Shown: positions 7,311-25,917 of the stretch, one piece after another
Layout of the letters: every line of letters begins with the position of its first letter
How positions within the stretch are numbered: the first letter of the stretch is position 1
Source of the DNA: Pseudomonadota bacterium
GTDB taxonomy: Bacteria; Pseudomonadota; Alphaproteobacteria; Dongiales; Dongiaceae
Reading direction: 5' to 3'
Length of the DNA: 64,000 nt
Assembly (NCBI GenBank): GCA_021792365.1
Contig: JAJYUT010000001.1
Coordinates: forward strand, 372,001 to 436,000
Notes under the pieces: model-generated
Database searches by the model: none
What the model was told of the DNA's origin: nothing
Seen by the model: the letters and a program-made list of their open reading frames with translations, nothing else
Translations under genes and position numbers: made by a program

Positions 7311-8267
7311 CTACCGCTCCAAGGGCTGCACGAAGCGGCGCCACAGATATTCAGCACCGTCCTCCGGCGTCATCTTCTTGGGGTCCAGACCTTCCCCGTA
7401 GTTGCCGAACATCGCACCCATCATGGCGGAGAGGAACAGCTCGCCTTCCTCCTCGGCAAGTCCCAGACTCTCGTTGAGGGCGTTGCTGCCCCGGTCCCAA
7501 CGCCCCTCGTAATAGCCGATGTCGTTGCCGCCGGAGAGCCCGCCGAGCCAGATCCGGCACTGCGACCGGCTGTTGCCGTTGACGAAGATCTCCGCCGTTA
7601 AGGAGTTCGCGTCAACGGGCGTGAATTCGAAATCCACGCTCGGGCTATCGTTTCGCAGCTCTTCGAGCGCGGATTGAAAGTAGGCTCGGATCAGGCCGAA
7701 GGCATCCCGAACAAACCGACGCCTGTCCTGATCGGTGATCTTGCCAGCGACCCGGGGCATGTGTCGGGGGCGCGAAGTCTTCCCCGCCGCAATGTCGGCT
7801 GGAAACGACGGTTTCGCCTCGGTGCCGCTGGCCGTTCCCGGAAAAGCTGGCCGCTGCGCCGGCTTGAGGCGGGTGCCCTGGACGTGGTCCAGCAGCCTCT
7901 TGCGGGCGGTCGCTTCGTCTGCACCGACGAAGTCGACGTAAACGATCGATTTCAGAATGCCGGTGATCTCACAGGGTCGAACCCGTACGGGCACAAGCAC
8001 CCGGCGGATTGCATCGGGGTCTGTGGCAAATGCCGCCGCCCACTCTGCCGAACCGAACTTCGACTCCTTTAGATAGGCCGGCGACAAGACCGCGATAGTC
8101 CGCTTGGCGCTGGAAGCGGCCCGTTGCATCTCCAGCACAAAATTGCTGCCGGCAGGGAAGTCCCACTTCTGAAGCACGACCGAGAATCGCGCTTCCTCGA
8201 GCGTCCAGGCGATCCATTCCGCCCACCCCTCGTCGGCGCCTGTATAGCTGATAAAGAAATCCGCCAT
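7311..8267 (-). CDS. TIR-domain protein, candidate defence effector
   Basis: The 318-aa protein starts MADFFISYTGADEGWAEWIA. Residues 1-130 form a bacterial TIR_2-type TIR domain with LQKWDFPAG, TIAVLSPAYL and SAEWAAAF. Glu75 in SAEW sits where the catalytic glutamate of NAD+-cleaving TIR domains is expected. A Pro/Ala-rich linker (about 145-180) leads to a C-terminal domain of about 135 residues (FVRDAFGLIRAYFQSALEEL ... IWLGGLSGG ... FVQPLE) that I cannot name and that may sense a trigger. The first 33 codons of the open frame were dropped because homologous TIR proteins begin at FFISY. Prokaryotic TIR domains often deplete NAD+ in anti-phage systems; that role here is inferred. Confidence 0.85.
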   Translation of the reverse strand: MADFFISYTGADEGWAEWIAWTLEEARFSVVLQKWDFPAGSNFVLEMQRAASSAKRTIAVLSPAYLKESKFGSAEWAAAFATDPDAIRRVLVPVRVRPCEITGILKSIVYVDFVGADEATARKRLLDHVQGTRLKPAQRPAFPGTASGTEAKPSFPADIAAGKTSRPRHMPRVAGKITDQDRRRFVRDAFGLIRAYFQSALEELRNDSPSVDFEFTPVDANSLTAEIFVNGNSRSQCRIWLGGLSGGNDIGYYEGRWDRGSNALNESLGLAEEEGELFLSAMMGAMFGNYGEGLDPKKMTPEDGAEYLWRRFVQPLER

Positions 8268-8468
8268 TCTACGAACGCCCCAAATCATCCCCGCGACTCG
8301 CTGGCGGGACCGGAAACATTGCGCCAGTCCGACCCGAGTCGGCAATCCTTGGAGCGGCCGCCACAAACCATCCGCACCGCCAAGTGCTGGCGCCGAACCT
8401 CTTGGCGCTTGCCGGAAAGCGAAGGCGGCGCCCGCGCGGGCACCGCCTCACCGAAAACCCCATCGCAT

Positions 8469-10196
8469 TCAGCCTTGCGGCAGCAGTGTGCGAACGCGCT
8501 CCCAGTCGGCAACATTCTTCAGGGTGCCATGTGCGGTGACGGTACGGGCCGGAAACTCCATCCAACCCGGCAGCCAGTTCGCGACCTTGGTTCGGCCGTT
8601 GGCACCGCCGAGACAATCGCGAATGATCTGCCGCTGGTCCTTGGCTTTGCTGGCGACATTGCCGTCTGCGACCGCCTTTCCGGCCACGGAGTCCAGCAGC
8701 GCGTTGATCGCCGGGCGGTCACGAACCAGCTCCAGGAACGTGTCGTCCGCCTGCCATTGGCCTCGGAGATCGAGCCTGAGATGTATGCCCACCGCCTCGA
8801 TCACGGCGCTCCCTGCTTCCAGCGTCTCCGCCATCACCAGGGCAAGAATGCGTGAGACATCCTCATCGGAAAGCGCCAACAGCCGCGCGAAGATCGTGAC
8901 CGTCTGGTAGGAGTCGCCGTTGCCCCGGACGATCTGGGCGCGGTCGTCGGAGAGCCCGAGCAGCACCGCGATTTCCGTGCGCCGCGCGCGGAACGTGGTT
9001 TCGGCGGAACTCGCTTCGACGCTCTTGGCAATGGCCTCGTTCTTCGCCGTCTGCGGATCGGCCCGCACCTGCCACCGGCCGGAACCACTGATCGCATGGG
9101 CCACCATGAGCCGCAGCGCAATGCCGGGCTCGTCCAGCAGCCGCGCGCGGACGGCGGCATGGCGGTGCAGATCGAGATAGTTCTGCAGCACGCTACTGAC
9201 CTCGGGATGATCGGCGGTCGCCGGCTGCCCGTCCTTCTTCGGCTCGCGTGTGCGCTTCGCTCGCGCCGCCTCCTTGCGGCTGAGATAACCCTCGTGAATG
9301 ACGACCTCGCCGCGCTGGGTGACCTCTATATAGACCTTGCCGCCCTTCTTCTTGGCGGTCTTTTCATATTCCCAGGTGTGGAAGTGCGCGCCGGTTTCGA
9401 GCACGACCACATCGCTCCAGCCGGCCTCGACGAACGCCGCCTTGCGCGCGACGACCGCCTCGTTCTGCTTCTGCCAGAACAGATTCGCATCCGCGAAATA
9501 CCGCTCCTCGCCGAAGAGGTCGGAGACGATCTCGCCGGGATAGTCCTCCAGTGGAAAGAGCGCGACCTTGGTCGACACCGATTGCCCGCCGAACAGCCAG
9601 TGCTTCAAATCCGAGCCCGTCGGCGCGTGGGACTCCTCATCTTCGAACAGGGCCAGCCATTCCTTCTGCTGCGACTTCGAGGCCAGGGTCAGGTGCCGCA
9701 CCGTCTCGGCATCGATCTCATCCGTGCGATACGCCTCGCGGATGCGCGGCAGCAGGTTGCCAAGCGCCAGACGCTGGGTGACCTGCCGCTCGGTGATCCC
9801 GAAGGTGGCCGCGATGTCGGGCACCGTCCGGCCCTTCTTCACCAGCTGCGCGAAGGTCTCGTATTGGCTCATCTCGTCGGGATCGAGTCGCGCGATGTTC
9901 TCGATCAGCGAGGCTTCGAGCGCCGCCGCGTCGTCGCCTTCCTCCATGATGGCACAGGGCAGCGGAGGCACCTCCCCGCCCTCCTCTTTCACCGCCTTGG
10001 CGCTGAAATATCGACGCCGCCCGGCGACGACTTCATAGGTTTCCGGCGTCCCGTTAGGCCGCACCAGCAGCGGCACCAGGACGCCGCGCGCCCGGATCGA
10101 CGGCAGGATGTCCGAGACATCGGGTGCTTTCTTGCCGTGCCGCATATTGAGCGGCGAGATGCAGAGGCGTTCAAACTCAATGTGAGCGAGTTGCAT
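8469..10196 (-). CDS. parB: ParB/RepB/Spo0J-family protein of the ICE backbone
   Basis: The 575-aa protein begins with a ParB N-terminal nuclease-like domain (about residues 1-110: LVPLLVRPNG, EVVAGRRRYFSA, ALEASLIENIARL). A KorB-like helix-turn-helix follows (about 125-185: TVPDIAATFGITERQVTQRLALG). The long C-terminal part, with AFVEAGW, KKKGGKVYIEV and LQNYLDLHRHAAVRARLL, is typical of the large ParB-like proteins found on rhizobial ICEs, not of chromosomal ParB. AAGGAG precedes the ATG. No parA is adjacent, so a role in element maintenance or gene control is more likely than classical partition. Confidence 0.9.
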   Translation of the reverse strand: MQLAHIEFERLCISPLNMRHGKKAPDVSDILPSIRARGVLVPLLVRPNGTPETYEVVAGRRRYFSAKAVKEEGGEVPPLPCAIMEEGDDAAALEASLIENIARLDPDEMSQYETFAQLVKKGRTVPDIAATFGITERQVTQRLALGNLLPRIREAYRTDEIDAETVRHLTLASKSQQKEWLALFEDEESHAPTGSDLKHWLFGGQSVSTKVALFPLEDYPGEIVSDLFGEERYFADANLFWQKQNEAVVARKAAFVEAGWSDVVVLETGAHFHTWEYEKTAKKKGGKVYIEVTQRGEVVIHEGYLSRKEAARAKRTREPKKDGQPATADHPEVSSVLQNYLDLHRHAAVRARLLDEPGIALRLMVAHAISGSGRWQVRADPQTAKNEAIAKSVEASSAETTFRARRTEIAVLLGLSDDRAQIVRGNGDSYQTVTIFARLLALSDEDVSRILALVMAETLEAGSAVIEAVGIHLRLDLRGQWQADDTFLELVRDRPAINALLDSVAGKAVADGNVASKAKDQRQIIRDCLGGANGRTKVANWLPGWMEFPARTVTAHGTLKNVADWERVRTLLPQG

Positions 10197-10713: not shown

Positions 10714-10911
10714 TCAGAACAGGTCGAGCTGGTTCCGGGCGTCCTCGTCGAACAGTCCAATGTTCATCGGCCGTTGCGGCTTCCTGGGCGCGAGGGGTGC
10801 GGCGAATAGAACTTCAAGGCGCTGGCGCAACGTGATGGGCGCAACGCCGGGAACGAGGGTCTGCTCGCCCTGCTCGGTCGGCTCGCTAGCAAGCGGGAAC
10901 GGCGCGCTCAT
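10714..10911 (-). CDS. Small conserved protein between ardC and DUF2958
   Basis: The 65-aa product ends in the acidic stretch MNIGLFDEDARNQLDLF. I recall proteins with a similar tail in this position in related elements, but there is no named family I can assign. Its ATG overlaps the ardC stop as ATGA, implying translational coupling. The stretch resembles a short linear motif that could dock onto another protein such as the replication clamp (QLDLF is close to the QLxLF clamp-binding consensus). That reading is inference. Confidence 0.75.
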   Translation of the reverse strand: MSAPFPLASEPTEQGEQTLVPGVAPITLRQRLEVLFAAPLAPRKPQRPMNIGLFDEDARNQLDLF

Positions 10912-11867
10912 GCCGCCGCCCCCCGCAGCTCCGGTGCGTTCTCTCGCTTTCCGCCGAGCACGAAATCAGCCGCTTTCGTCGCCTGACTGGCGGCGCGGAA
11001 GATCGCGCGGCAATCCTCGCGCAGCACGTCGAGCCATGCGCCGAGATAGTCGGCATGGCGCACGGTCGGCACGATTCCGAGCGCCGCGCAGACAAAGGCG
11101 CTCGCCATCTCGGCGACGAGTTCCTCGCGCGCATAGGGGTTCGATCCCTTGCGCCCCGACTGATCACGGTTCAGGCGCGATGAATGCCCGGTCCAATGGC
11201 CAAGCTCATGGAAACAGGTTCGGTAGTAATCGATCTGATGGAAGAAGGCCGGCTGCGGCGGGACCCGGATGTAGTCCTCGGCCGGCACGTAGAACGCCTT
11301 GTCGCCGCCGATCCGAAAGTCCGCGCCCGTCGCCGCAATGACGGCCTCGGCCTGCGGTATGATCTCGCGCTGAGGCGCGACGGGTGCCGGCCGCAGCATA
11401 TGCTCGGGCAGATCTTCGCATTGCGCGGCATTGAACACAGTGAAGCGCTTCAGGAACGGAACGACGTCCGGCTCGCCGCCCTCGCGCGCGACACGTTCCA
11501 ACTCGGCGCGCGGCGTAAAGCGGTCGGCATAGAAGATGGTGGTACCGCGCTCGCCCTTGCGGACATGACCGCCGAGGGTCAGCGCCTGCCGGAAGGTCAG
11601 CCACTGCTGGGCTGCAAATCCCTGCGCGTGCACGGCCCCCCAGAGAACCAGCACGTTGATCCCCGAGTAGGCCCGACCCGTGGCAGCGTTCTTCGGCAGG
11701 CCCAGTGCGGCCTTGGCGGAACCCCAGGGCTGCACCCAGGGCACCCGCCCCTGCTCCAACTCCTGGATGATCCGCTCCGTTACCTCCTGATAGAGGCTGG
11801 GCTTGCCCGCCCCGCCCTCTTGAATGCGGCTCTCTCCGCCGCTCCGCTGGCTGCCGCTCCTGGCCAT
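10908..11867 (-). CDS. ardC: ArdC-type antirestriction protein, zincin-like metallopeptidase
   Basis: The 319-aa protein has an N-terminal ssDNA-binding ArdC domain (about residues 20-150: SLYQEVTERIIQELEQGRVPW, GRAYSGINVLVLW) and a C-terminal zincin-like metallopeptidase domain. His220-Glu-Leu-Gly-His224 in HELGHWTG forms the zinc-binding helix, and EELVAEMASAF probably provides the third ligand region. ArdC proteins protect incoming DNA from restriction in some plasmids. ATG at 11867 has a GGGAGG site upstream; the open frame further upstream is non-coding leader. It heads the ardC, small gene, DUF2958 operon. Confidence 0.92.
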   Translation of the reverse strand: MARSGSQRSGGESRIQEGGAGKPSLYQEVTERIIQELEQGRVPWVQPWGSAKAALGLPKNAATGRAYSGINVLVLWGAVHAQGFAAQQWLTFRQALTLGGHVRKGERGTTIFYADRFTPRAELERVAREGGEPDVVPFLKRFTVFNAAQCEDLPEHMLRPAPVAPQREIIPQAEAVIAATGADFRIGGDKAFYVPAEDYIRVPPQPAFFHQIDYYRTCFHELGHWTGHSSRLNRDQSGRKGSNPYAREELVAEMASAFVCAALGIVPTVRHADYLGAWLDVLREDCRAIFRAASQATKAADFVLGGKRENAPELRGAAA

Positions 11868-11942
11868 GGCCTTTCCTCCCGCGCAAAAAAACCGCGCCGC
11901 TTGCCCCGGCAAGCGGGGTGGGCGGCGCCTTGCGACCGAAAA

Positions 11943-12035
11943 GGCCCGCCGTCGGAGGCGGGCCGCACCGATAGGCCGGAACGAAGTGGAGGACCCGCAG
12001 CGAGAGCGGAGGGTTGCGGACCGCCGCGGCGGGCC
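11943..12035 (-). promoter_or_regulatory. Leader element shared with DUF736 (copy 2)
   Basis: GGCCGGAACG-AAGTGGAGGACC-GCAGCGAG starts at 11974 and matches the copy at 6281 over about 24 bases. Inverted repeats GGCCCGCCG (11943-11951) and CGGCGGGCC (12027-12035) bracket it. A further hairpin, CCGCTTG/CAAGCGG, lies at 11897-11916 nearer the gene. The spacing to the ardC start is about 107 nt, as in the DUF736 copy. Confidence 0.5.
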
Positions 12036-12484
12036 TAGAAGGGAGCGCCGCCCACACCGCGCCGCAGGGAAAGCCAATGAAGGAACGACATCGCGCGGAG
12101 CGCGATGACCGGATGAGCCCGCGGTAGCGGGCGCAGCGCCAGGGGGCGACGCCGGAGGGCCGAGACGCCAGGCGAGCGCAGCGAGACGCGGCTCGGTTCA
12201 CGAGCACCCGGCGCGCGCGTGAGCGCGCGGGCGCTAAAAGCGTCGGGAAGGCAAAGGGATTGCTAAACAGTGCTCACAATATCGGTGACCAGCGGCTCGC
12301 GCATACATCTGGCATGCGGAACGACGGGAAATCGAATCTGCCTCAGACAATTTCCGCAGAAGGGCGTGACTGTCTCCACTGCCCTAGCAATTCGATCAAA
12401 CTCGAAGGCTCAGGCCGCCGCCCGCCGCTTGACATTGCGAGCGAACGACTGCGGATGATTCCGCCAGCGGCTCTTGCTGCGATG
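12036..12484. other. Non-coding stretch between the ardC leader and the XRE gene
   Basis: I find no convincing gene. The first half is very GC-rich with short local dyads (CGCGCGGAGCGCG, GCGCGCGTGAGCGCGC). The second half (about 12240-12480) is less GC-rich and has stops in all frames at short intervals. It probably holds the promoter of the ardC operon, but I see no clear hexamers. Confidence 0.4.
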
Positions 12485-12706
12485 TTACGATTTGCTTCGC
12501 TTGAACAGGATCGCCGGATCGACCTGCAAAGCCTTTGACAAGCGCTCGATCATATCCACCGTCGGAGAATTCTCGCAGCGCTCGATCATACCCACATAGT
12601 TGCGATGGATCCCGACGCGATGTGCCAGTTCCTCCTGCGACAACTGTCGTTCTTGCCGGATCTGCCGGAGGTTCTTAGCCACAATTTCGCCAAGCGTAAG
12701 CGCCAT
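12485..12706 (-). CDS. XRE-family repressor
   Basis: The 73-aa protein is almost entirely one Cro/C1-type helix-turn-helix domain: LRQIRQERQLSQEELAHRVG, HRNYVGMIERCENSPTVDMIERLSKAL. ATG at 12706 is preferred over a GTG at 12742. A -10-like TATACT (12745-12750, minus strand) and a near-perfect palindrome overlap the GTG, so a transcript from that promoter would start inside the longer frame. The gene is divergent from the small gene at 12892. Repressors of this kind keep ICE transfer genes silent and often regulate themselves. Confidence 0.85.
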   Translation of the reverse strand: MALTLGEIVAKNLRQIRQERQLSQEELAHRVGIHRNYVGMIERCENSPTVDMIERLSKALQVDPAILFKRSKS

Positions 12707-12740
12707 GGCGGTAGCGAAACTCGTTGAGAGATTCGCTTCC

Positions 12741-12756
12741 ACCTAGTATACTGGGT
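12741..12756. promoter_or_regulatory. Candidate operator/promoter of the XRE gene
   Basis: ACCTAGTATACTGGGT is a 16-bp palindrome with a single mismatched pair. It contains TATACT on the minus strand, a good -10 hexamer for the XRE gene; no clear -35 is seen. The position suggests autorepression. Confidence 0.5.
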
Positions 12757-12891
12757 ATTCTGTCTTCCTCTTGTGAGGAGACCAATAGACGCGCGTGCGG
12801 CCGAGAGAAAACGCTGGGTCAGAATAAGGGGGGCCGACGTTTCTTCCGCAAATGTTTTGCCAGGCTTGTGCCAGTCTAAGGAGATCCTTGT

Positions 12892-13128
12892 ATGTCGGCA
12901 GAACTGAACACCTGGAACAGCTTCTGGGACCTGGCTACCCCCACGGAAGCCGCGGCGATGCTCCGGGAGAGCTATGGCCCGAAGGCGGCTGCGGCCGCGG
13001 AGGAGTGCGCCAGCGCGGCCAAAAACGACGACCGCGAAACCGACCACTTCTTCTGGCTCGCGGTGGCCGCTGAACTGAAAAAAGATCCTGGTGTCGCTGC
13101 ACCGGTGGCACAGCCGATCCCGCATTGA
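12892..13128 (+). CDS. Small conserved hypothetical protein
   Basis: The 78-aa protein starts MSAELNTWNSFWDLATPTEAAAML and continues with RESYGPKAAAAAEECASAA and DRETDHFFWLAVAAEL. It is helical and acidic, without signal or membrane segment. AAGGAGA about 8 nt before the ATG supports it. I recall similar short proteins on rhizobial accessory elements, but no domain name applies. It is divergent from the XRE gene and could be under its control. Confidence 0.7.
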   Translation: MSAELNTWNSFWDLATPTEAAAMLRESYGPKAAAAAEECASAAKNDDRETDHFFWLAVAAELKKDPGVAAPVAQPIPH

Positions 13129-13381
13129 AGATCGGCATCCGTTCAGTGCCATCCACAGGCCTGGCACGCTCGCGCCGCATAAGGCGCTAAGACGCAATGA
13201 ATCACGACGTGCACCCAGCAGCGGCGCAGGCGCATTGCCGAGCGGACGTCCCAACGGGCAGAAGTGCTTGCACAGCGCGCCCTGGCTGTTCGCAAGCACG
13301 ACGGGCCAAGACGCAGCCGTCGGTGATGACGCGAAATTTGGCGTTGGATAACGGCCGCGCGGTCGAGCAAAGGGGTAATCC

Positions 13382-15316
13382 ATGGCGCGGAACAGGCCCA
13401 GCATGGATGGTCCCATACGGGCGGCGCAATATCTGCGCATGTCCTCGGACAACCAGCGCTATTCCACGGAGAACCAGCAGAACGCCATCGCCGAGTATGC
13501 CCAGGCGCACGGCTATGACGTCGTCGCGAGCTACATCGATGCGGGGAAGAGCGGCCTCTCCCTGAAAGGCAGGGACGCGCTCAAGCAGCTGCTCAGCGAT
13601 GCGCTTGCCGTCAACCGCCCCTTCGACGCCATCCTGGTGCTGGATGTCAGCCGCTGGGGCCGGTTTCAAAACCCCGACCAGGCGGCGCATTACGAGTTCC
13701 TGTGCCGACAGGCCGGGGTGCATGTCGTGTATTGCGGCGAACCGTTCGGTGAGGACGTCGCCCCCATCACGACCATCGTCAAGCACCTGAAGCGCGTGAT
13801 GGCCGGCGAATACAGCCGCGAGCTGTCGGTGAAGCTCGCGCGCGCCCATCTTCAACAGGCACAACTGGGGTTTCGCCAGGGTGGGAGCCTGATCTACGGC
13901 TTCCGGCGGCTCCTGGTTGACCCCGAGCGCCGTCCCCGCCAGGTATTGAACCGAGGAGAGTCTAAGGCCCTGAGTTCGGACAAGGTCGTCGTGATCCCTG
14001 GGCCGCCGGAAGAGCTTGCCGTCATTCGGCGCATTTTCAGGCTCTATGTGCGCGATGGATTGTCCGTTCCTGCGATCGCCGAGCGCCTCGCGCGGTCCGG
14101 CGTGACGGGGTATCGTGGCAATCCTCTGAGGAAATGGACCATCCGGCACATCCTGCAGAATGAACTCTGCATCGGGCAGCTCACCTACAATCTGACCTCG
14201 AAGAGATTGCAAGGCCCCACGCTGAGGAATCCCGCGCCGGCCTGGACCAGGTTTTCAGTGTTCGAGCCGATCGTGCCGATCCGGCAGTTTCGCAGAGCCC
14301 AGGCGCTCCTTGCGCAAGAGCGACATCCGCGCTGGGACAAGGAAACCATCATCAGCGCCTTGCAGCGGCTGCTCGCGCAGAAGGGGCGTCTTTCGCAAAC
14401 ACTGATCAATGCAGCGGAGGATACACCATGCTCGGAGACCGTCACGAACTGGTTCGGGTCGCTGGACGCCGCCTACGCCGCCGCGGGTTATACCCCGCCG
14501 CCGCAGCCGCAATTTGGCATCAACGGAAAATATTGGAGCGAGAAGGCGGTTCTGGCCGGTCTGCGAAAGCTCCACGCCGCGCGGGGGCGCATCACGAACC
14601 GGCTGATCAGCGGCTCTGCCGATCTGCCGTCCCCGACCCACATCCGGCGCCACTTCGGCTCGCTGCCGGAAGCGATGCGGCAGGCAGGCTTGCTTGTTCC
14701 ATCCCATAGTGAGAAGCAGCTCGATGCCTGGCGGCGCCGACGGGCCGCCGGGGTCGACCAATACTATCTAGGCGTACGATGGACAGACGTGGAGCTGCTA
14801 CGCGCCCTGAAGCGGCTTCATAAACGATATGGGTACATCTCGAACATTCTGCTTAACCGCAATCACGACACACCGACCGCGTACTATTACGCCAAGCGGT
14901 TCGGCTCCGTCACCATGGCACGGCTCCTGGCGAGGGTACCCGTCGAGACGCTTTCGCAGTCGACCACCGCGGCGTGGAAGCGCAGGAGGGCAGGCAAGCT
15001 GATCGAGCAGGGGCCGCGCTATCCATTTCAGCATCCGGGCCTGCGCTATCGTTCCGACGAGATCCTGATCGGACTGAAGCGGTTGGCAGAACGGGTGGGG
15101 ATAATCTCAATGCACCGCATCGATGATGACCCAACGCTGCCTTCGGCCGCCACCGTGATCGGCCACTTTGGCTCCATGAAGGAGGCATATCGGTTGGCCG
15201 GATTGGTCCCGTTGGATGGAAGACGATTTGGAATACCACATGCCTGCAGTAGCGACCTTGCCCCCACAGGCCGGCGCCGGAGGACACGCGCTTTTCGTAG
15301 CGGGATTACGATATAG
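13382..15316 (+). CDS. Large serine recombinase with four C-terminal repeats
   Basis: The 644-aa protein has an N-terminal resolvase domain (about residues 12-155) with YLRMS, where Ser21 is the expected nucleophile, and LDVSRWGRF. A Recombinase domain follows (about 195-300: SVPAIAERLARSGV, LRKWTIRHILQNELCIGQ). The zinc ribbon and coiled coil usual in large serine integrases are absent. Instead there are four repeats starting near residues 320, 385, 467 and 558, each of the form L..L....G.is..li.....ps..t....FGS...a...aG. They resemble the homing-endonuclease-associated repeat found near HNH nucleases. An AGGGG site precedes the ATG. It could move this island or an embedded smaller element; no partner att site is evident. 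Confidence 0.88.
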   Translation: MARNRPSMDGPIRAAQYLRMSSDNQRYSTENQQNAIAEYAQAHGYDVVASYIDAGKSGLSLKGRDALKQLLSDALAVNRPFDAILVLDVSRWGRFQNPDQAAHYEFLCRQAGVHVVYCGEPFGEDVAPITTIVKHLKRVMAGEYSRELSVKLARAHLQQAQLGFRQGGSLIYGFRRLLVDPERRPRQVLNRGESKALSSDKVVVIPGPPEELAVIRRIFRLYVRDGLSVPAIAERLARSGVTGYRGNPLRKWTIRHILQNELCIGQLTYNLTSKRLQGPTLRNPAPAWTRFSVFEPIVPIRQFRRAQALLAQERHPRWDKETIISALQRLLAQKGRLSQTLINAAEDTPCSETVTNWFGSLDAAYAAAGYTPPPQPQFGINGKYWSEKAVLAGLRKLHAARGRITNRLISGSADLPSPTHIRRHFGSLPEAMRQAGLLVPSHSEKQLDAWRRRRAAGVDQYYLGVRWTDVELLRALKRLHKRYGYISNILLNRNHDTPTAYYYAKRFGSVTMARLLARVPVETLSQSTTAAWKRRRAGKLIEQGPRYPFQHPGLRYRSDEILIGLKRLAERVGIISMHRIDDDPTLPSAATVIGHFGSMKEAYRLAGLVPLDGRRFGIPHACSSDLAPTGRRRRTRAFRSGITI

Positions 15317-15759
15317 CAGTCTTGTGTTGAACAGGCATGCACGACCCTGCCATCCCTCACCTGGATGGCTGCGTCTATTCCTTCACTGCCTCAAGCAAGC
15401 CCCGCTGCCGTATACTCGGTGCAGCTGTCACGCCGCCGGAACTCAGGCGCTGAGCCTGAGCGTAGCGTTACCTGCAAGCAGCCTTATCGGAGCGAGGTGT
15501 TGACACACTTCCCTCCGGGCAGCTGGGCGTACCCGCGGGTATGGTGGTGGTTCACTCAACCACTGAGGCCGGTAGCCACTAAGATATCGTGGGGCGGGCA
15601 TCTGTTGTTGGGATGATCCGAAGCTGCCCGCGTCGGCACATGTTCCGGCTGTGCATGAAGGCGCTCAAGTCGAGATATACATTGAATCGCCGTCTTCGGG
15701 GCCGCGGAGGCTCGCTAAGCCCAAAAATTGGTAAGTTTCTGCAACGCTCTGGCCGATAC
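15317..15759. other. Non-coding stretch between recombinase and GntR genes
   Basis: I see no supported gene in these 443 bases. A local dyad, GCGCTGAGC...GCTCAGCGC-like, lies around 15447-15465 (CTCAGGCGCTGAGCCTGAG). The base composition drops towards the right, marking entry into the lower-GC catabolic cluster. An attachment site for the serine recombinase could lie here, but I cannot identify one. Confidence 0.35.
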
Positions 15760-16476
15760 TTAATCCCTGTACATGGTCATCACATACTCGAACTTGTTGG
15801 TGTCGAAATAGCTGATGGCGACTTCCACGGGTTGCCCGCCATGGACTAGGTATGTTCGGGTGGTCTTGAGCATCGGTGCGCGAGCGCGTACCCGAAGCTC
15901 TCTGGCCGCGATTGTGGGCGCTGTCACGGCGGTTATTTCTTGACGAACCTCTGCAATCGAAAACCCGTGCTCCTCTTCGAGCAGCGGATAGAATATACCT
16001 CGGTCCAGTCTGGACGAATGAAGATCCCGCGCCAACACCTTCGGAACGAATACTTCTTCGTAGGCGAAATCGCCCACCTCACTTTTGCTTCGTATGCCGC
16101 AGAAGCGATAGACTGCTTCGATATCTGTATCCCCGAGTCTTTCGGCAATCTCTCGTGGTGGTGAGATCAGCTTCGATCCGATGCTTCGATACTGAGTTTC
16201 CTCCGCATAGTAATTCAGATCGGAGAGCGATCCGGTCATGCGCACAGACGCGCCATGGTGAACGCCTTGCCGCACGAGCGTGCCCAAGCCTGATCGAGAA
16301 TAGAGGATGCCTCGACGCTTCAAGAGAGCAAGCGCTTGGCGAATGGTGATCCTGCTTGCTTGAAACTCCTGCTCGAGCAGCTTCTCCGTCGGCAGGGCTG
16401 CGCCAGGCTCATAGCGGCCTGATCGGATCTGTCGTTCAATCTTGTCGGCTATGTCGCGATAGAGGGTAGATATCAT
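15760..16476 (-). CDS. GntR-family regulator, HutC subfamily
   Basis: The 238-aa regulator has an N-terminal winged helix-turn-helix (LYRDIADKIERQIRSGRYEPG, LPTEKLLEQEFQASRITIRQAL, GLGTLV) and a C-terminal UTRA ligand-binding domain (about residues 85-235, with YEEVFVPKVLARDL and VEVAISYFDTNKFEYV). HutC-type regulators usually repress catabolic genes until a small effector binds. ATG at 16476 starts right at the domain. It lies downstream of atuA-DUF4387 on the same strand and probably controls that operon and the divergent ABC operon. A similar ATAACANNATAT motif precedes both this gene and the divergent promoter region. Confidence 0.92.
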   Translation of the reverse strand: MISTLYRDIADKIERQIRSGRYEPGAALPTEKLLEQEFQASRITIRQALALLKRRGILYSRSGLGTLVRQGVHHGASVRMTGSLSDLNYYAEETQYRSIGSKLISPPREIAERLGDTDIEAVYRFCGIRSKSEVGDFAYEEVFVPKVLARDLHSSRLDRGIFYPLLEEEHGFSIAEVRQEITAVTAPTIAARELRVRARAPMLKTTRTYLVHGGQPVEVAISYFDTNKFEYVMTMYRD

Positions 16477-16485
16477 ATAAAGAGC

Positions 16486-16497
16486 ATAACAACATAT
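16486..16497. promoter_or_regulatory. Candidate GntR operator, copy upstream of gntR
   Basis: ATAACAACATAT lies 10 bp upstream of the regulator's start. ATAACATTATAT at 18285-18296, between the two divergent operons, matches 10 of 12 positions. The shared AT-rich motif is a candidate site for the GntR protein. Confidence 0.4.
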
Positions 16498-16576
16498 TCT
16501 TTGCGATGACAAGGTTGTCCCTTGAAGAGCTGTATGGGCATTGCAAAAGAGCGCATAGGCACGCCGTCTCCATTCG

Positions 16577-16903
16577 TCACGGCCATGGCACCTGAATGTC
16601 CAACAATGGTGCGTGCTGCTGACAACCATATATATCCGTGTCGCCGAGCGATCCTTGTGTGGTGCGCCGCCGGAGTGTGAATTTGATGGCGAGGCCGGCA
16701 TCGAACTCGTGCAAGGAAAGCAACTCTCCCGGCTGGAGACCATAGAGTTGTGTTACGCTCGCGGGGGTTATCACTTTCGCTGCCTTGACCCGTTCGTAGG
16801 TCGAAGAATCACGGAAGATGACGTCGAACGTTAGTCGGAACGGCTTGGCGTTCTTGCTCCGCACGACGTGAGCGAGTTCTCCCAATGATTTCGTAGTCAT
16901 CAC
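16577..16903 (-). CDS. DUF4387 family protein
   Basis: The 108-aa protein matches DUF4387: LGELAHVVRSKNAKPFRLTFDVIF, then ITPASVTQLYGL and AIKFTLRR, and a late GDTDIYGCQQHAPLL. DUF4387 genes commonly sit beside AtuA-family genes, as here, and the pair probably acts together. The reaction is unknown. Its ATG overlaps the atuA stop (ATGA), so the two are translationally coupled. Confidence 0.92.
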   Translation of the reverse strand: MMTTKSLGELAHVVRSKNAKPFRLTFDVIFRDSSTYERVKAAKVITPASVTQLYGLQPGELLSLHEFDAGLAIKFTLRRRTTQGSLGDTDIYGCQQHAPLLDIQVPWP

Positions 16904-18255
16904 AAGTCCTCCAGGCGAATGGGGAATGGCGATAGAGGGTCAGGGATTTCCATAAGGTGATAGATCGAGAACTCATAGCACCGTCCGGCATCGATCTCCG
17001 AAGGAGAGTGGAGAAAGGCGAGATTACCGGCATTGTTTTTTTGTCCATCGTAGCTGTAGTGCAGGAGCGTTCCAGTGGTGACATGACAAATCGCGTGCGC
17101 TAGGTCCTGCGTCGGGGCGATAACCTCGGTCACGAGTCCGATCTCGTGCGCAGCCGAATTGAATGATCGTTCGAACGGCCCCATGACCGCATCCTTTCCA
17201 TACCTATGGAAAAGCAGCGTGAACGGCATCTCGTCCTGGAAATACCGCATCATCTTGGCGCGGACTTCATCGAGGATCGCGTCAATCCTCTCGATCATGG
17301 TGGGGCATCGAATGCCGGCAATCGAGATGGTTCGATAACCGACCGGCCGGACGCCTTCCAGCTTTACCTTGTACACGGCGTCCGGACGAAACCGCGATCC
17401 ACTGACACGAACCCGCCGTTCGTCTAATTGCGTGAACCGCGTCTGGGTCATGTCCACGCTGCCGCCCGGTCCGGCCTGAACGAGCGGGTCTTCGCGCTCA
17501 TAGAGGGAGTGGCCCGCCACGGAAGCGACCGTACACCGACGCTTCAGGCTGCCGGGTTCGACCACGAACCCATTCTTGTCCAAGGTTCCAAGAATGACAT
17601 CCATACCGAAGGGCTCGGCACAGAGAGCACCGCATTCGAGGATTTTCCCCATGTGAATGGCGGACCCCGGGTCGAACCCCTTCAGGATCGGGTAGGCTGC
17701 AATCACCGCGTCATCGCACGCCCGGCCCGCAAGAATGATTTTTGCGCCGGCTTCGAGGGCGGCGGCGATGGGCTCGGGCCCCATTTGGCCGACGATCGTC
17801 GTGCTGCTTTCGATTGTTTCCCTGGACGGAAGAGACCCGGCTTCGAAGTCGGACAGCTTTCCGTTGTTCAGCGCCTCGACGACGCTGCTCGCCGGGATTT
17901 CCGCAGAGATGGTTGCGAGCCGAAAGTGCCAGCCGTGCTTGCGTGCCAGGTCGCGGACAATGTCCGCCATCCAGTCGACCTGATCGTTCCGCCCACTGCC
18001 CCCGCAACTTCCCACGATCAACGGAACATTATTCTCAAGCGCTGCGGCGACCAACATCTCCATCTCTCGGGATATTGCTATCCTCGGAGCAAGCGGCTCG
18101 CCATCGCCAAGATAGAATGGGCCGGGATCGGTAGAACCGGCATCGACCGCGATCGCGGAAGGCCGCAGCGCCATTCCACGTGAAAGCGCTTCCGGGTCGA
18201 ACCCATAACCGAGAATTCCCGTTGGCGCCAGGATTCGAACGGTTTCCAATGTCAT
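16900..18255 (-). CDS. AtuA-family protein (DUF1446), acyclic terpene utilisation-like
   Basis: The 451-aa protein matches the AtuA/DUF1446 core: VRILAPTGILGYGF, AIAVDAGSTDPGPFYLG, LIVGSCGGSGRNDQVDWM, ILAGRACDDAVIAAYPI. Pseudomonas AtuA belongs to the citronellol/geraniol pathway but its reaction has not been established to my knowledge. Relatives occur in many other catabolic clusters with a DUF4387 partner. The transporter and N-methyl oxidoreductase next door suggest it acts on a polar compound here and not on a terpene. It heads the atuA-DUF4387-gntR strand and shares a divergent promoter region with the ABC operon. Confidence 0.88.
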   Translation of the reverse strand: MTLETVRILAPTGILGYGFDPEALSRGMALRPSAIAVDAGSTDPGPFYLGDGEPLAPRIAISREMEMLVAAALENNVPLIVGSCGGSGRNDQVDWMADIVRDLARKHGWHFRLATISAEIPASSVVEALNNGKLSDFEAGSLPSRETIESSTTIVGQMGPEPIAAALEAGAKIILAGRACDDAVIAAYPILKGFDPGSAIHMGKILECGALCAEPFGMDVILGTLDKNGFVVEPGSLKRRCTVASVAGHSLYEREDPLVQAGPGGSVDMTQTRFTQLDERRVRVSGSRFRPDAVYKVKLEGVRPVGYRTISIAGIRCPTMIERIDAILDEVRAKMMRYFQDEMPFTLLFHRYGKDAVMGPFERSFNSAAHEIGLVTEVIAPTQDLAHAICHVTTGTLLHYSYDGQKNNAGNLAFLHSPSEIDAGRCYEFSIYHLMEIPDPLSPFPIRLEDL

Positions 18256-18281
18256 CTCCCTGCATCGTCGTCACGCCAAAG

Positions 18282-18311
18282 ATTATAACATTATATTTTT
18301 TAAGTTGACAA
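18282..18311 (-). promoter_or_regulatory. atuA promoter with overlapping GntR-operator candidate
   Basis: On the minus strand TTGTCA (18306-18311) and TATAAT (18282-18287) are 18 bp apart and would start transcription about 20 nt upstream of the atuA ATG. TATAACATTATA (18284-18295) is an inverted repeat with 5-bp arms that overlaps the -10. On the plus strand TTGACA (18305-18310) could be the -35 of the divergent ABC operon, but its -10 is weak. Confidence 0.55.
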
Positions 18312-20097: not shown

Positions 20098-20945
20098 CCA
20101 CGCAAACCGATTTGCCAGTCCTCCTCCCATTCACCTTGGGATCGTCCGCCACCCCTCGCCGAAAGGCATGCCTCCTCAGGCCGGCGACCTGGTGTTCGAT
20201 CCTGGTTGTGGCAGCCCTCGCCGGGGCGGCGACGGCTAATGCGAGCGCGAGCGCGGCCATTGTCTCCGGGGTCATCCCGACTATGTGGAAGTGGGCGCCC
20301 CTCGTCCTGCAGGGGTTCGCATTCAATCTTCTGGTGAGCGTTCTCTCCATGGCGATCGGAACGTTGGCCGGTCTATTTTTGGGCCTCGCCCAGGTATCGC
20401 TCTATGGACCGGTTCGGCGTACATCCTGGCTCGCCACTCAGTTCTTTCGGAATGCGCCATGGCTGGTTCTCCTATTCTACTGCATGTACTTGCTGCCGTT
20501 CGAGATCGAGATCTTCGGCCTAACAATTCTACTGCCGGCCTGGTGCAAAGCCGTCATCGGACTTTCACTGCCGGTCATGGCTAATGTCGCGGAAATTGTG
20601 CGTGGTGGTATTCAGTCGATCCCGCTTACGCAGTGGGAGTCTGCCGAGGCGCTGGCATTCTCAAGACGGCAAACGATCTGGATGATCATCTTGCCTCAAT
20701 GCCTGAAGCGAATGGCGCCACCATGGATGAACCTCTACGCGATCCTCACCATGGCGACGACACTTGTGTCCCTGGTGGGAGTCCAGGAATCTATGACCAT
20801 GACACGGGCCGCGCTGGTCGCAGAAGCGCGGACTGATCTCTTCATACCGATGTACATGATGCTACTCGCACTGTTCGCCCTCTATTGCTACCCGATCGCG
20901 CGCTGGACGCAGAGGCTCGAGCGGAAGTTCGCAGTTCGAGACTAA
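20094..20945 (+). CDS. Amino acid ABC transporter permease, second subunit
   Basis: The 283-aa permease has a longer N-terminal region than its partner, with a membrane helix at about residues 33-60. The core shows QFFRNAPWLVLLFYCMY and the EAA loop SAEALAFSRRQTIWMIILPQ. ATG at 20094 overlaps the upstream stop, so translation is coupled. Together with the first permease and the ATPase encoded at 23504 it completes the importer. Confidence 0.92.
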   Translation: MTTQTDLPVLLPFTLGSSATPRRKACLLRPATWCSILVVAALAGAATANASASAAIVSGVIPTMWKWAPLVLQGFAFNLLVSVLSMAIGTLAGLFLGLAQVSLYGPVRRTSWLATQFFRNAPWLVLLFYCMYLLPFEIEIFGLTILLPAWCKAVIGLSLPVMANVAEIVRGGIQSIPLTQWESAEALAFSRRQTIWMIILPQCLKRMAPPWMNLYAILTMATTLVSLVGVQESMTMTRAALVAEARTDLFIPMYMMLLALFALYCYPIARWTQRLERKFAVRD

Positions 20946-24491: not shown

Positions 24492-25721
24492 TCAGACTGG
24501 GGCGGAACTTGTTAGCGCCGCAACGAGCGCCGCAATTGTCTCGGTAGCATCGCGCTTTGCATCGTCGCTCACGCGAGCGTAGATCTCGGTCGCCTTCGTG
24601 GTCTTGTGGCCCATCGCTTTGCCAATCAGCAAGAGTGACATCCCACCTCTGGCACCGATGCTGCCCCAGCTTCGACGAAGATCATGCAAAGTCACATCGT
24701 CGAGACCAGCAAGCTTGCGTACCCTGTGCCACGCCTTTTCGATGGCGATGAAATGCCCACCCTCGACGTCTCCGGGGAAAACGTATGGATTTCCGTCTTT
24801 TCGAGGAAGCTCTATAAGCAGTGAGATCGATTGATCACCAAGGTAGGTGACTTTTCGTCCCGTCTTTGTATCAGGCAGGCGGAGGCAGCGATCCTCAAAG
24901 TCCACAAAGGACCATTGGAGAGTAACAAGCTCCGAGCGCCGCAGCCCTGTGTAGAGGAGCAACCGCAATATCGCTGTCACGCGGTAGTCTTCGGTGTCAT
25001 TGCGCTCCAGCGCGTCCAAGGTCTGAGCAAGCCTTTGATATTCACGGTTCGAGAGGAATCGCTCGCGCGAGATTTCTGGATTCCGCTGGACATGTCGGGC
25101 CGGGTTAGTTCCACGGGCGCGTAGATCTCGGCTTTCTGCGAAGTTGAACATCTTGCTGAGCAGAGACACAGTGCGATTTGCGACGCCCTTTCCGCCGCGG
25201 ACCTTGCTCCACCGTTGTTTTCCCAAGCGCACCACGCGGGATGTGTGGCCGTCTTCGACCGATCGCATGATGCGTTCAACGTCAGCCTGAGTGACGCGGT
25301 CGATCTTCAGCTTGCCTCCCAAAGGAATGATATGATTGTCGATGATCCCTTGATAGGTGACGGCGGTGAGCGCTTTTAGGCGGCGTTGCCCATGTTCCGT
25401 CATGAACTGGGTGCACAATTCCTGCAGCGTGGTGGACTTGCGCTGCTTCTGCTTTTCTTCACTTGGATCCCGACCAGCGGCGACTTCGCCCAACCATCGT
25501 TGAGCCTTGAGGCGCGCCTGCTCGCAAGTGATCGCTCCATGAGCGCCTATCGCGGGCCGCCTCTCGTAATTGTCGGAAGTTCGGTAATACAGGAAGTAGA
25601 CGCGCTTCCCCTTCGGCGTGATCTTGCAACCGAAGCCTTTAATCTCTGTGTCCCAGATGATCTGGTTCTTTGCGCAAGGTTCGATTGCCTCAACAGTGCG
25701 CTTGGTCAGCTTCGCCCTCAC
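24492..25721 (-). CDS. int: Tyrosine-type site-specific integrase
   Basis: The 409-aa integrase has an N-terminal arm-binding DUF4102 domain (RAKLTKRTVEAIEP, DTEIKGFGCKITPKG), a SAM-like core-binding domain and a C-terminal catalytic domain. The catalytic set is visible: Arg in LLLYTGLRRSEL, HDLRR for His and the second Arg, GHKTTKATEIYARV for the last His and the Tyr nucleophile. GTG at 25721 has GGAG 7 nt upstream and is preferred over a TTG at 25763. It lies next to a broken tRNA-Arg gene on the same strand, the usual layout for an island integrase, and probably inserted the island. Confidence 0.93.
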   Translation of the reverse strand: MRAKLTKRTVEAIEPCAKNQIIWDTEIKGFGCKITPKGKRVYFLYYRTSDNYERRPAIGAHGAITCEQARLKAQRWLGEVAAGRDPSEEKQKQRKSTTLQELCTQFMTEHGQRRLKALTAVTYQGIIDNHIIPLGGKLKIDRVTQADVERIMRSVEDGHTSRVVRLGKQRWSKVRGGKGVANRTVSLLSKMFNFAESRDLRARGTNPARHVQRNPEISRERFLSNREYQRLAQTLDALERNDTEDYRVTAILRLLLYTGLRRSELVTLQWSFVDFEDRCLRLPDTKTGRKVTYLGDQSISLLIELPRKDGNPYVFPGDVEGGHFIAIEKAWHRVRKLAGLDDVTLHDLRRSWGSIGARGGMSLLLIGKAMGHKTTKATEIYARVSDDAKRDATETIAALVAALTSSAPV

Positions 25722-25739
25722 CGCTCGCTCCGAATTTCC

Positions 25740-25760
25740 TAGGTCGCAAATAGGTCGCAA
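25740..25760. repeat. Tandem 10-bp repeat upstream of int
   Basis: TAGGTCGCAA occurs at 25740-25749 and again at 25751-25760. Its place between the integrase start and the tRNA fragment makes it a candidate arm-type integrase site, but the copies may be part of a longer upstream reading of the integrase. Confidence 0.5.
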
Positions 25761-25877
25761 CAAAGGGCGAATCGGGGAGTATCCCGATGTCCGTCGGAGT
25801 AAATCTATTTGAGCTAAGTACCTGAGAAAACTTAGGTCAGCGTAGCAGGGAGAGCTCCGGCGTACAGCCCAAGCTAA

Positions 25878-25917
25878 TTTAGGAAACCGACGCTCTATCC
25901 TGCTGAGCTACGGGGTC
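25878..25917 (-). pseudogene. tRNA-Arg(CCU), 5' half only
   Basis: On the minus strand the sequence starts GACCCCGTAGCTCAGCAGGA and continues through the D arm (GCTC/GAGC) and anticodon arm stem TCGGT. It reaches the loop TTCCTAA (anticodon CCU). At tRNA position 40 the match stops: instead of ACCGA for the second stem strand the DNA reads ATTAGC, and no variable loop, T arm (GTTCGA) or acceptor 3' strand follows. The break falls at the anticodon arm, a common crossover site for tyrosine integrases. The gene cannot make a working tRNA as it stands; the 3' half may lie at the far end of the island. Confidence 0.8.

Follow-up and report, generated by a model that had tools for sequence, protein, structure and literature searches.

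How does a serine recombinase that carries four repeats instead of a zinc ribbon recognize its target DNA? The question is raised by a gene in the window, which is the whole 64-kb (64,000-nucleotide) stretch of DNA analyzed here (Table 1). We give a probability of about 70% to the reading that the encoded protein is a recombinase of the large serine recombinase (LSR) type, most likely a mobile or defense-island integrase, in which an array of four TetR-like helix-turn-helix (HTH) units of the family PF18780 reads a longer site.

Domains of the recombinase

The Pfam scan of the window protein revealed a Resolvase match (74.3 bits, residues 15 to 154) and the Recombinase domain PF07508 (56.2 bits against a cutoff of 21.1, residues 209 to 312). 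Residues R19, S21, R91, R94, R138, and R146 were among the invariant columns of an alignment of 10 proteins, and we take S21 to be the nucleophile and R19, R91, and R94 to be its usual partners. Residues 10 to 315 of the model fit the serine integrase-DNA complex 9dxh (VIA-align against the PDB; Z = 19.5, 4.8 Å over 276). The two domains and this fold are shared with LSRs such as SPbeta, Bxb1, PhiC31, and LI integrase. Relatives of the protein include those of loci L074 (65% identical) and L047/L072 (70% over residues 6 to 541).

The C terminus sets the protein apart from these LSRs, which have a zinc ribbon and a coiled-coil arm where it has four HTH-like units. The initial annotation had claimed that no zinc ribbon follows the Recombinase domain, and this was confirmed by a Pfam list free of zinc-ribbon families at E ≤ 1 and by the lack of a CxxC. 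From unit 1 onward, a CxxC is absent in all 17 array proteins compared (L156 left out) and in all 122 single-unit proteins, so that the zinc ribbon is missing from the whole family. A long coiled-coil arm is absent as well, the longest helix predicted after residue 320 having 15 residues in the full model and 19 in the model of the array. An ordinary coiled-coil integrase C terminus in the homologs had been named as the observation that would speak against the claim, and the homologs do not have it. No nuclease family scored above its Pfam cutoff in the window protein (LAGLIDADG_3, 15.9 bits against 22.5).

Table 1. Features at and around the recombinase gene, in window coordinates
Feature	Position	Strand	Remarks
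TIR protein, ThsB-like in PADLOC	7311..8366	-	neighbor
ParB-like protein	8469..10196	-	neighbor
ArdC-like antirestriction protein	10908..12077	-	neighbor
XRE-type HTH regulator	12485..12742	-	upstream neighbor
Serine recombinase gene	13382..15316	+	644 codons, frame open throughout
Resolvase catalytic domain	13424..13843	+	residues 15-154; R19, S21, R91, R94 conserved
Recombinase (RD) domain	14006..14317	+	residues 209-312
Array unit 1	14333..14494	+	residues 318-371; predicted recognition helix 351-358
Array unit 2	14534..14695	+	residues 385-438; predicted recognition helix 418-425
Array unit 3	14780..14941	+	residues 467-520; predicted recognition helix 500-507; preceding linker helix 442-455
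Array unit 4	15047..15208	+	residues 556-609; predicted recognition helix 589-596; preceding linker helix 524-536
Short similarity to PhnB/VOC-like gene	15505..15572		85% over 53 bases (G003), 78% over 68 bases (G002)

The repeat units

Four repeats of about 50 residues had been placed near residues 320, 385, 467, and 558; a profile iterated out of the window's four units set their starts at 318, 385, 467, and 556, with about 54 residues each and gaps of 13 to 35 residues between them. Their resemblance to the HNH-associated repeat was borne out by PF18780 (HNH_repeat), which matched the window protein with 60.5 bits (E = 2e−16; cutoff of 26) in four stretches at E ≤ 1. Since the unit profile was trained on these very units, the Pfam match constitutes the independent evidence. 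The common ending that had been described, FGS plus a hydrophobic AG pattern, does not extend to every repeat, as unit 3 keeps the FGS and lacks the final AG (FGSVTMARLLARV). No unit besides these four was found by the unit profile in the six frames of the window.

PF18780 also matched all 16 array proteins scanned at E ≤ 0.001 (the window protein plus 15 others whose contigs are named or viral; L047 and L048 were left out), and the only other families found in them were Resolvase and Recombinase. At E ≤ 0.01 it matched 5 of the 10 proteins in alignment A1 (two with arrays), which shows that single units are often below the reach of the profile. A search of the window's own genome with the profile gave no match, we think because single units score low individually, and the scan of whole proteins is the right test.

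The full-length AlphaFold2 model (40-row alignment) had a mean pLDDT of 81.3 and a pTM of 0.52. Every unit is predicted to form the same four helices (residues 320 to 334, 339 to 344, 351 to 358, and 361 to 367 in unit 1), and the pLDDT falls under 50 at residues 1 to 8, 378 to 382, 458 to 465, 540 to 555, and 622 to 644. The array modeled on its own reached a pLDDT of 81.9 but a pTM of 0.41, i.e., the single units are predicted with confidence and their placement relative to each other and on DNA is not. The two checks suggested in the initial annotation, a PF18780 search of the C terminus and a structure prediction, thus gave a family match and confidently predicted separate units.

The array group and its single-unit relatives

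Relatives were drawn from 61 relatives, 385 class genomes, 398 phylum genomes, plasmids, phages, named genomes, and IMG/VR. The matches in plasmids (110 records) and phages (46 records) never covered 80% of the query, and those in named genomes are the best 80 of 543, so that the sample leans towards the window protein (P0001). Of the 141 different recombinase open reading frames (ORFs) sampled, each with 350 residues or more, 122 carry a single unit; two units occur in 6, three in 9, four in 3, and none in 1, the 380-residue ORF of L086. L047, counted among those with three, has a fourth unit in another frame, as seen on L072. L072 also has a second, shortened recombinase gene that overlaps the array recombinase gene at its start (L072:7979-10400).

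Recombinases with one unit were found in Pseudomonadota, Acidobacteriota, and Planctomycetota. Behind the unit they carry another type of C-terminal domain. A RepB-like gene lies on the same strand at most 2.5 kb downstream in 97 of 115 such proteins (queries, the two RepB proteins of L023; at least 800 bases downstream required, which 7 further proteins did not have). Of the 18 loci without such a gene, 12 hold less than 1.2 kb downstream. None of the 18 array proteins, including that of the window gene (L001), has a RepB-like gene downstream. Single-unit "recombinase family proteins" beside RepB genes, such as that of the Agrobacterium plasmid At (NC_003064), show 37 to 46% identity through unit 1, and L022 and L023 have two annotated RepB-like genes. 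The one-unit recombinase and the RepB/ParB-like genes form a conserved module in several phyla and plasmids (e.g., L022 and L023). The window's genome itself encodes a second relative on another contig, a single-unit protein of 590 amino acids (L014, G000:C21) with an SRAP gene about 1 kb away.

Judging from these sequences, the unit is not private to the window gene, one copy being standard in a large family. The array in place of a zinc ribbon is thus real, as had been claimed, and is not a lone exchange: it is an expansion of the single-unit family, and what is new is the array group rather than the presence of one unit.

A tree was built from the residues before unit 1, with 60 rows comprising all 18 array proteins and a random draw of 42 of the 122 single-unit proteins. 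It placed 17 of the 18 array proteins (two to four units) to the same side of a branch supported at 100/94, in a topology whose bootstrap is not fully settled, whose root is a midpoint only, and which has several long end branches. The array label changed twice on this tree, compared with 15.7 times in shuffles (0 of 500 shuffles were as low). The exception, L156, has two units that are far from each other. Unit number changes inside the array group, the named members of which belong to Caulobacteraceae, Sphingomonadales, Phyllobacteriaceae, Rhodospirillaceae, and Xanthobacteraceae; viral contigs contributed 3 of the 17 proteins.

Neighborhood and search for att sites

Besides the neighbors listed in Table 1, SLT and IS66 genes lie left of the window gene, and GntR, DUF4387, and AtuA genes lie to its right. 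PADLOC matched 8 of 20 neighbor proteins, in 7 of 8 array loci, in a set picked by eye from these loci, i.e., chosen neither blindly nor against a background rate. The matches were QatC (L074), ThsB (window), DarT and DarG (L079), an AriAB-like ATPase (L077), PDC-S35 (L021), a weak PDC-M03A on a HipA protein (L081), and a type IIG/PglX-like protein (L078), with none at L091. The ArdC, ParB-like, and TIR neighbors speak for the main reading, in which the window recombinase would serve a mobile or defense island. The stretch at 24492 to 25914 of the window also contains a tyrosine integrase gene, next to which positions 25879 to 25914 match L083:18819-18854 (92% over 36 bases), perhaps as a shared att core.

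A comparison of element borders had been proposed as a way to the att sites. It was run, and the borders and att sites of the window's own element were not found in the flank comparisons that follow. One sharp-ended similarity, to a PhnB/VOC-like gene from the same-genus genomes G002 and G003 (Table 1), is possibly an att site or a gene remnant. The window's genome has other VOC genes (the best 45% identical) and lacks an orthologue of the G002/G003 gene, and 15 of 300 shuffles equaled the segment in dyad symmetry. When the flank at 15350 to 18300 was compared with 17 family genomes, the only matches besides its own genome were the 53 VOC-like bases (G003) and parts of AtuA (G005). Of 289 class genomes (two candidates scored per genome), the window's own was the only one to match positions 15470 to 15610, and positions 12750 to 13400 and 15317 to 16600 gave nothing in plasmids. 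A tRNA was not found in the window, and no Rfam family reached its gathering score there.

An all-against-all comparison of the 700-base flanks at 17 array loci yielded a single strong case. L073 and L077 share a truncated SRAP (YedK-type) gene just upstream of the array recombinase (L073:8730-8960, L077:9770-9823), and in L073 the homology to intact same-genus SRAP genes stops at base 8960, where the homology to L077 begins, exactly to the base. SRAP as a target gene is nevertheless unproven: G501 did not yield the other half, the genome of L077 has an intact copy elsewhere, and the SRAP homology begins at the start codon in most contexts.

Direct repeats around relatives

Some relatives of the window protein lie among long direct repeats. 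They suggest an alternative that is compatible with the main reading and that we consider possible, though on the unlikely side: array proteins would recombine long near-identical direct repeats and move defense or toxin-antitoxin blocks by tandem accretion, not through distinct attP and attB sites. The case for it starts from L074, the closest named four-unit relative among those sampled, with four direct copies of one sequence nearby (9539 to 9628, 11925 to 12014, 14074 to 14163, and about 20553 to 20626) that are the only matches in its 6.3-Mb genome. Copies 1 to 3 match over 75 to 90 bases at 94 to 95%, and copy 4 matches over 67 to 90 columns at 82 to 88%. The recombinase is enclosed by copies 1 and 2, one main ORF without a Pfam match by copies 2 and 3, and four main ORFs, including a QatC-like one, by copies 3 and 4. 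When L074 and its surroundings were compared with 80 family genomes, the MFS gene on the left was matched in six and nothing was matched to the right of the recombinase; the left synteny with these six ends about 30 to 165 bases before copy 1 (the L260 contig ends earlier). The next 1.5 kb in the six relatives (less in L260) had no match on the L074 contig, so that no empty site was found.

Repeats in L081 (three copies of 46 to 60 bases, 73 to 80%, at ORF borders) and L079 (two intergenic pairs) point the same way. In L079:6915-9711, DarT and DarG (213 and 457 bits) lie between two intergenic repeat copies, beside a four-unit recombinase. A fixed filter retained repeats in 3 of 17 array loci and in 1 of 63 single-unit loci (gene-flanking pairs in 2 of 17 and 0 of 63); these examples were already known when the filter was chosen, with L156 left out and L154 just below the identity cut.

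By the same count, 14 of the 17 array loci have no such repeat, and none was found at the window gene under the fixed filter or otherwise, which argues against tandem accretion. So does a looser test, which scored a direct repeat at 8 of the 18 array loci, where those of L072 and L073 stem from paralogous parts of genes, and at 9 of the 36 controls. Dyad symmetry was not above that of shuffles in the repeats of L074, L081, L079, L154, and L156. A relative of the L074 repeat (79% over 70 bases) is present in G871, where 9 kb of sequence contained no member of this recombinase family, and the block in L074 could not be delimited on its far side. The L074 repeat had no significant match in the window, L072, or plasmids. 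We regard the repeats as candidate recombination sites only.

Predicted fold and divergence of the putative DNA-facing helices

The VIA comparison of the array model gave 50 rows, led by the start of the SauUSI coupler domain (7clg, residues 616 to 669; Z = 6.9, 2.0 Å over 53). Another 48 were TetR-type or so-labeled transcription regulators (Z = 4.5 to 5.6, 2.4 to 4.3 Å over 50 to 61 residues; e.g., 6a4l, Z = 5.6, 2.4 Å over 52), and the remaining one was UFL1 (8b9x), at 23 Å; Z values of 5 to 7 are modest, and the tool warns that this level may reflect a common arrangement. The regulators among them that are not named TetR are presumably of the TetR type as well. The third helix of TetR proteins reads DNA, so that helix 3 of the model (residues 351 to 358 in unit 1) is likely the reading helix. 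The predicted fold suggests that the unit is better described as a TetR-like HTH, albeit with modest fit scores. TetR_N was not among the Pfam matches of the window protein at E ≤ 1, and the likeness to TetR is structural only.

Other searches returned little. Foldseek with the array model gave no row at E ≤ 0.001 against the PDB, and the rows from a profile search against PDB sequences looked like chance matches, e.g., OspA (E = 1e−5), in which no stretch passed individually. For the array model in a viral fold library, three rows at E ≤ 0.001 corresponded to two uncharacterized phage proteins and one without a name, and the phage HNH endonuclease K4FB69 (E = 1.0, 2.6 Å over 48 columns) was suggestive only.

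The units could instead be protein-protein or architectural modules that do the work of the coiled-coil arm in synapsis or directionality, or that bind a partner protein, while the Recombinase domain chooses the site. We judge this improbable. The best VIA row belongs to a coupler (residues 618 to 805) that links an ATPase and a TRD (PMC7913695). This coupler is not the DNA-reading domain, and the lack of dyads in the repeats of the five relatives fits such a role. Yet 48 of the other 49 rows are DNA-binding regulators of the TetR type or so labeled, Pfam names the unit after homing endonucleases, and the arrays diverge on helices 2 to 4, not on helix 1.

This divergence was measured on columns chosen by helix and polarity only, with L156 left out. 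At an N-terminal identity of 0.6 to 0.9, identity at the polar positions of helices 1 to 4 was 0.46, 0.31, 0.34, and 0.36 in arrays (29 unit pairs) compared with 0.29, 0.79, 0.49, and 0.55 in single-unit proteins (3,702 pairs), where pairs are not independent and helices 2 and 4 contribute three and two columns. At 0.5 to 0.6, the values were 0.27, 0.18, 0.20, and 0.20 in arrays (90 pairs) and 0.24, 0.48, 0.38, and 0.30 in single-unit proteins (2,228 pairs). Helices 2 to 4 of the arrays, which are predicted to face DNA, diverge faster than helix 1, whereas the reverse holds for single-unit proteins. Contact columns from unit 1 only, picked after their entropies had been seen, gave identities of 0.17 in arrays (4 pairs) and 0.54 in single-unit proteins at an N-terminal identity of 0.6 to 0.7, and of 0.31 (7 pairs) and 0.56 at 0.7 to 0.85, with no contrast below 0.5; the choice by helix and polarity gives a weaker contrast than these columns.

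Four Mesorhizobium-group proteins account for most of the contrast, which is clearest in L081, L048, L076, and L077, where the unit scaffolds are alike and helix 3 differs. In the trio of the window protein (L001, L047, and L074), helix 3 is not more divergent than helix 1 (mean identities of about 0.40 and 0.43), which would be consistent with a common target or similar ones.

A functionless array, expanded neutrally or in decay, is very improbable: unit 4 of the L072 relative lies in another frame and unit number varies, but the frame is open in both the window gene and its L074 relative, whose proteins are 65% identical, the unit cores are conserved, and one supported group keeps two to four units.

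Proposed mechanism and relation to known systems

Under the main reading, a modular DNA-reading array on an LSR core, the catalytic and Recombinase domains would cut and exchange strands as in other LSRs, and four TetR-like HTH units on flexible linkers would replace the zinc ribbon and the coiled-coil arm. The third helix of each unit would be laid in the major groove, progressively further out along the half-site, and the third helices together would read a longer site than that of a canonical integrase. Specificity would evolve by changes in the recognition helices and by gain or loss of units. The initial proposal that the array reads a long modular target is only indirectly supported, by the changed helix faces and by the long repeats near some relatives, the att site of the window not having been found.

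A zinc ribbon with an embedded coiled-coil arm is a feature of the LI integrase structure (PMC3783163). The window protein misses it and is an LSR-like variant, not a canonical member. It also belongs to PF18780: it shares the profile match with the HNH_repeat of homing endonucleases and differs from them in being fused to a recombinase without an HNH nuclease domain, whose absence is no bar to membership since the family is defined by the unit. The zinc-finger and TALE recombinases described in PMC3510496 likewise combine a serine catalytic domain with a modular DNA-binding array, but they are engineered, while the window protein is natural, keeps its Recombinase domain, and has HTH-like units. 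Multi-targeting LSRs with DUF4368 (PMC10083194) also carry an extra C-terminal domain; DUF4368 is not among the Pfam matches of the window protein, and "HNH" does not appear in the main text of that paper. Integron- and SCC-like cassette systems have repeated sites around gene blocks, which were seen at L074, L081, and, more weakly, L079, and not at the window.

A literature search, with most subscription journals outside its scope, found no work on recombinases with homing endonuclease-associated repeats or HTH repeats. In the accessible portions of the same literature, PF18780/HNH_repeat was mentioned in a table row only. The accessible texts on zinc-finger, TALE, and natural recombinases dealt with engineered fusions or other topics, and those on defense islands held no description of such an array recombinase.

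A bolder version of the main reading, which we offer as doubtful, is that of a natural, zinc-finger-like modular recombinase family in which the HTH recognition helices change while the scaffold stays. Sites of about 60 to 90 bp would be re-targeted by exchange of units, and near-identical long repeats would be recombined, shuttling blocks of defense genes in Alphaproteobacteria and phages.

Serine integrases are prized as tools, and their targets are hard to change. The array group poses the question of how direction is controlled in a serine integrase without a coiled-coil arm. A natural group that varies both unit number and helix faces offers a code to decipher and a scaffold for re-targeting, and if every unit recognizes a few letters of its own, it would be the natural counterpart of the modular recombinases that engineers build by hand.
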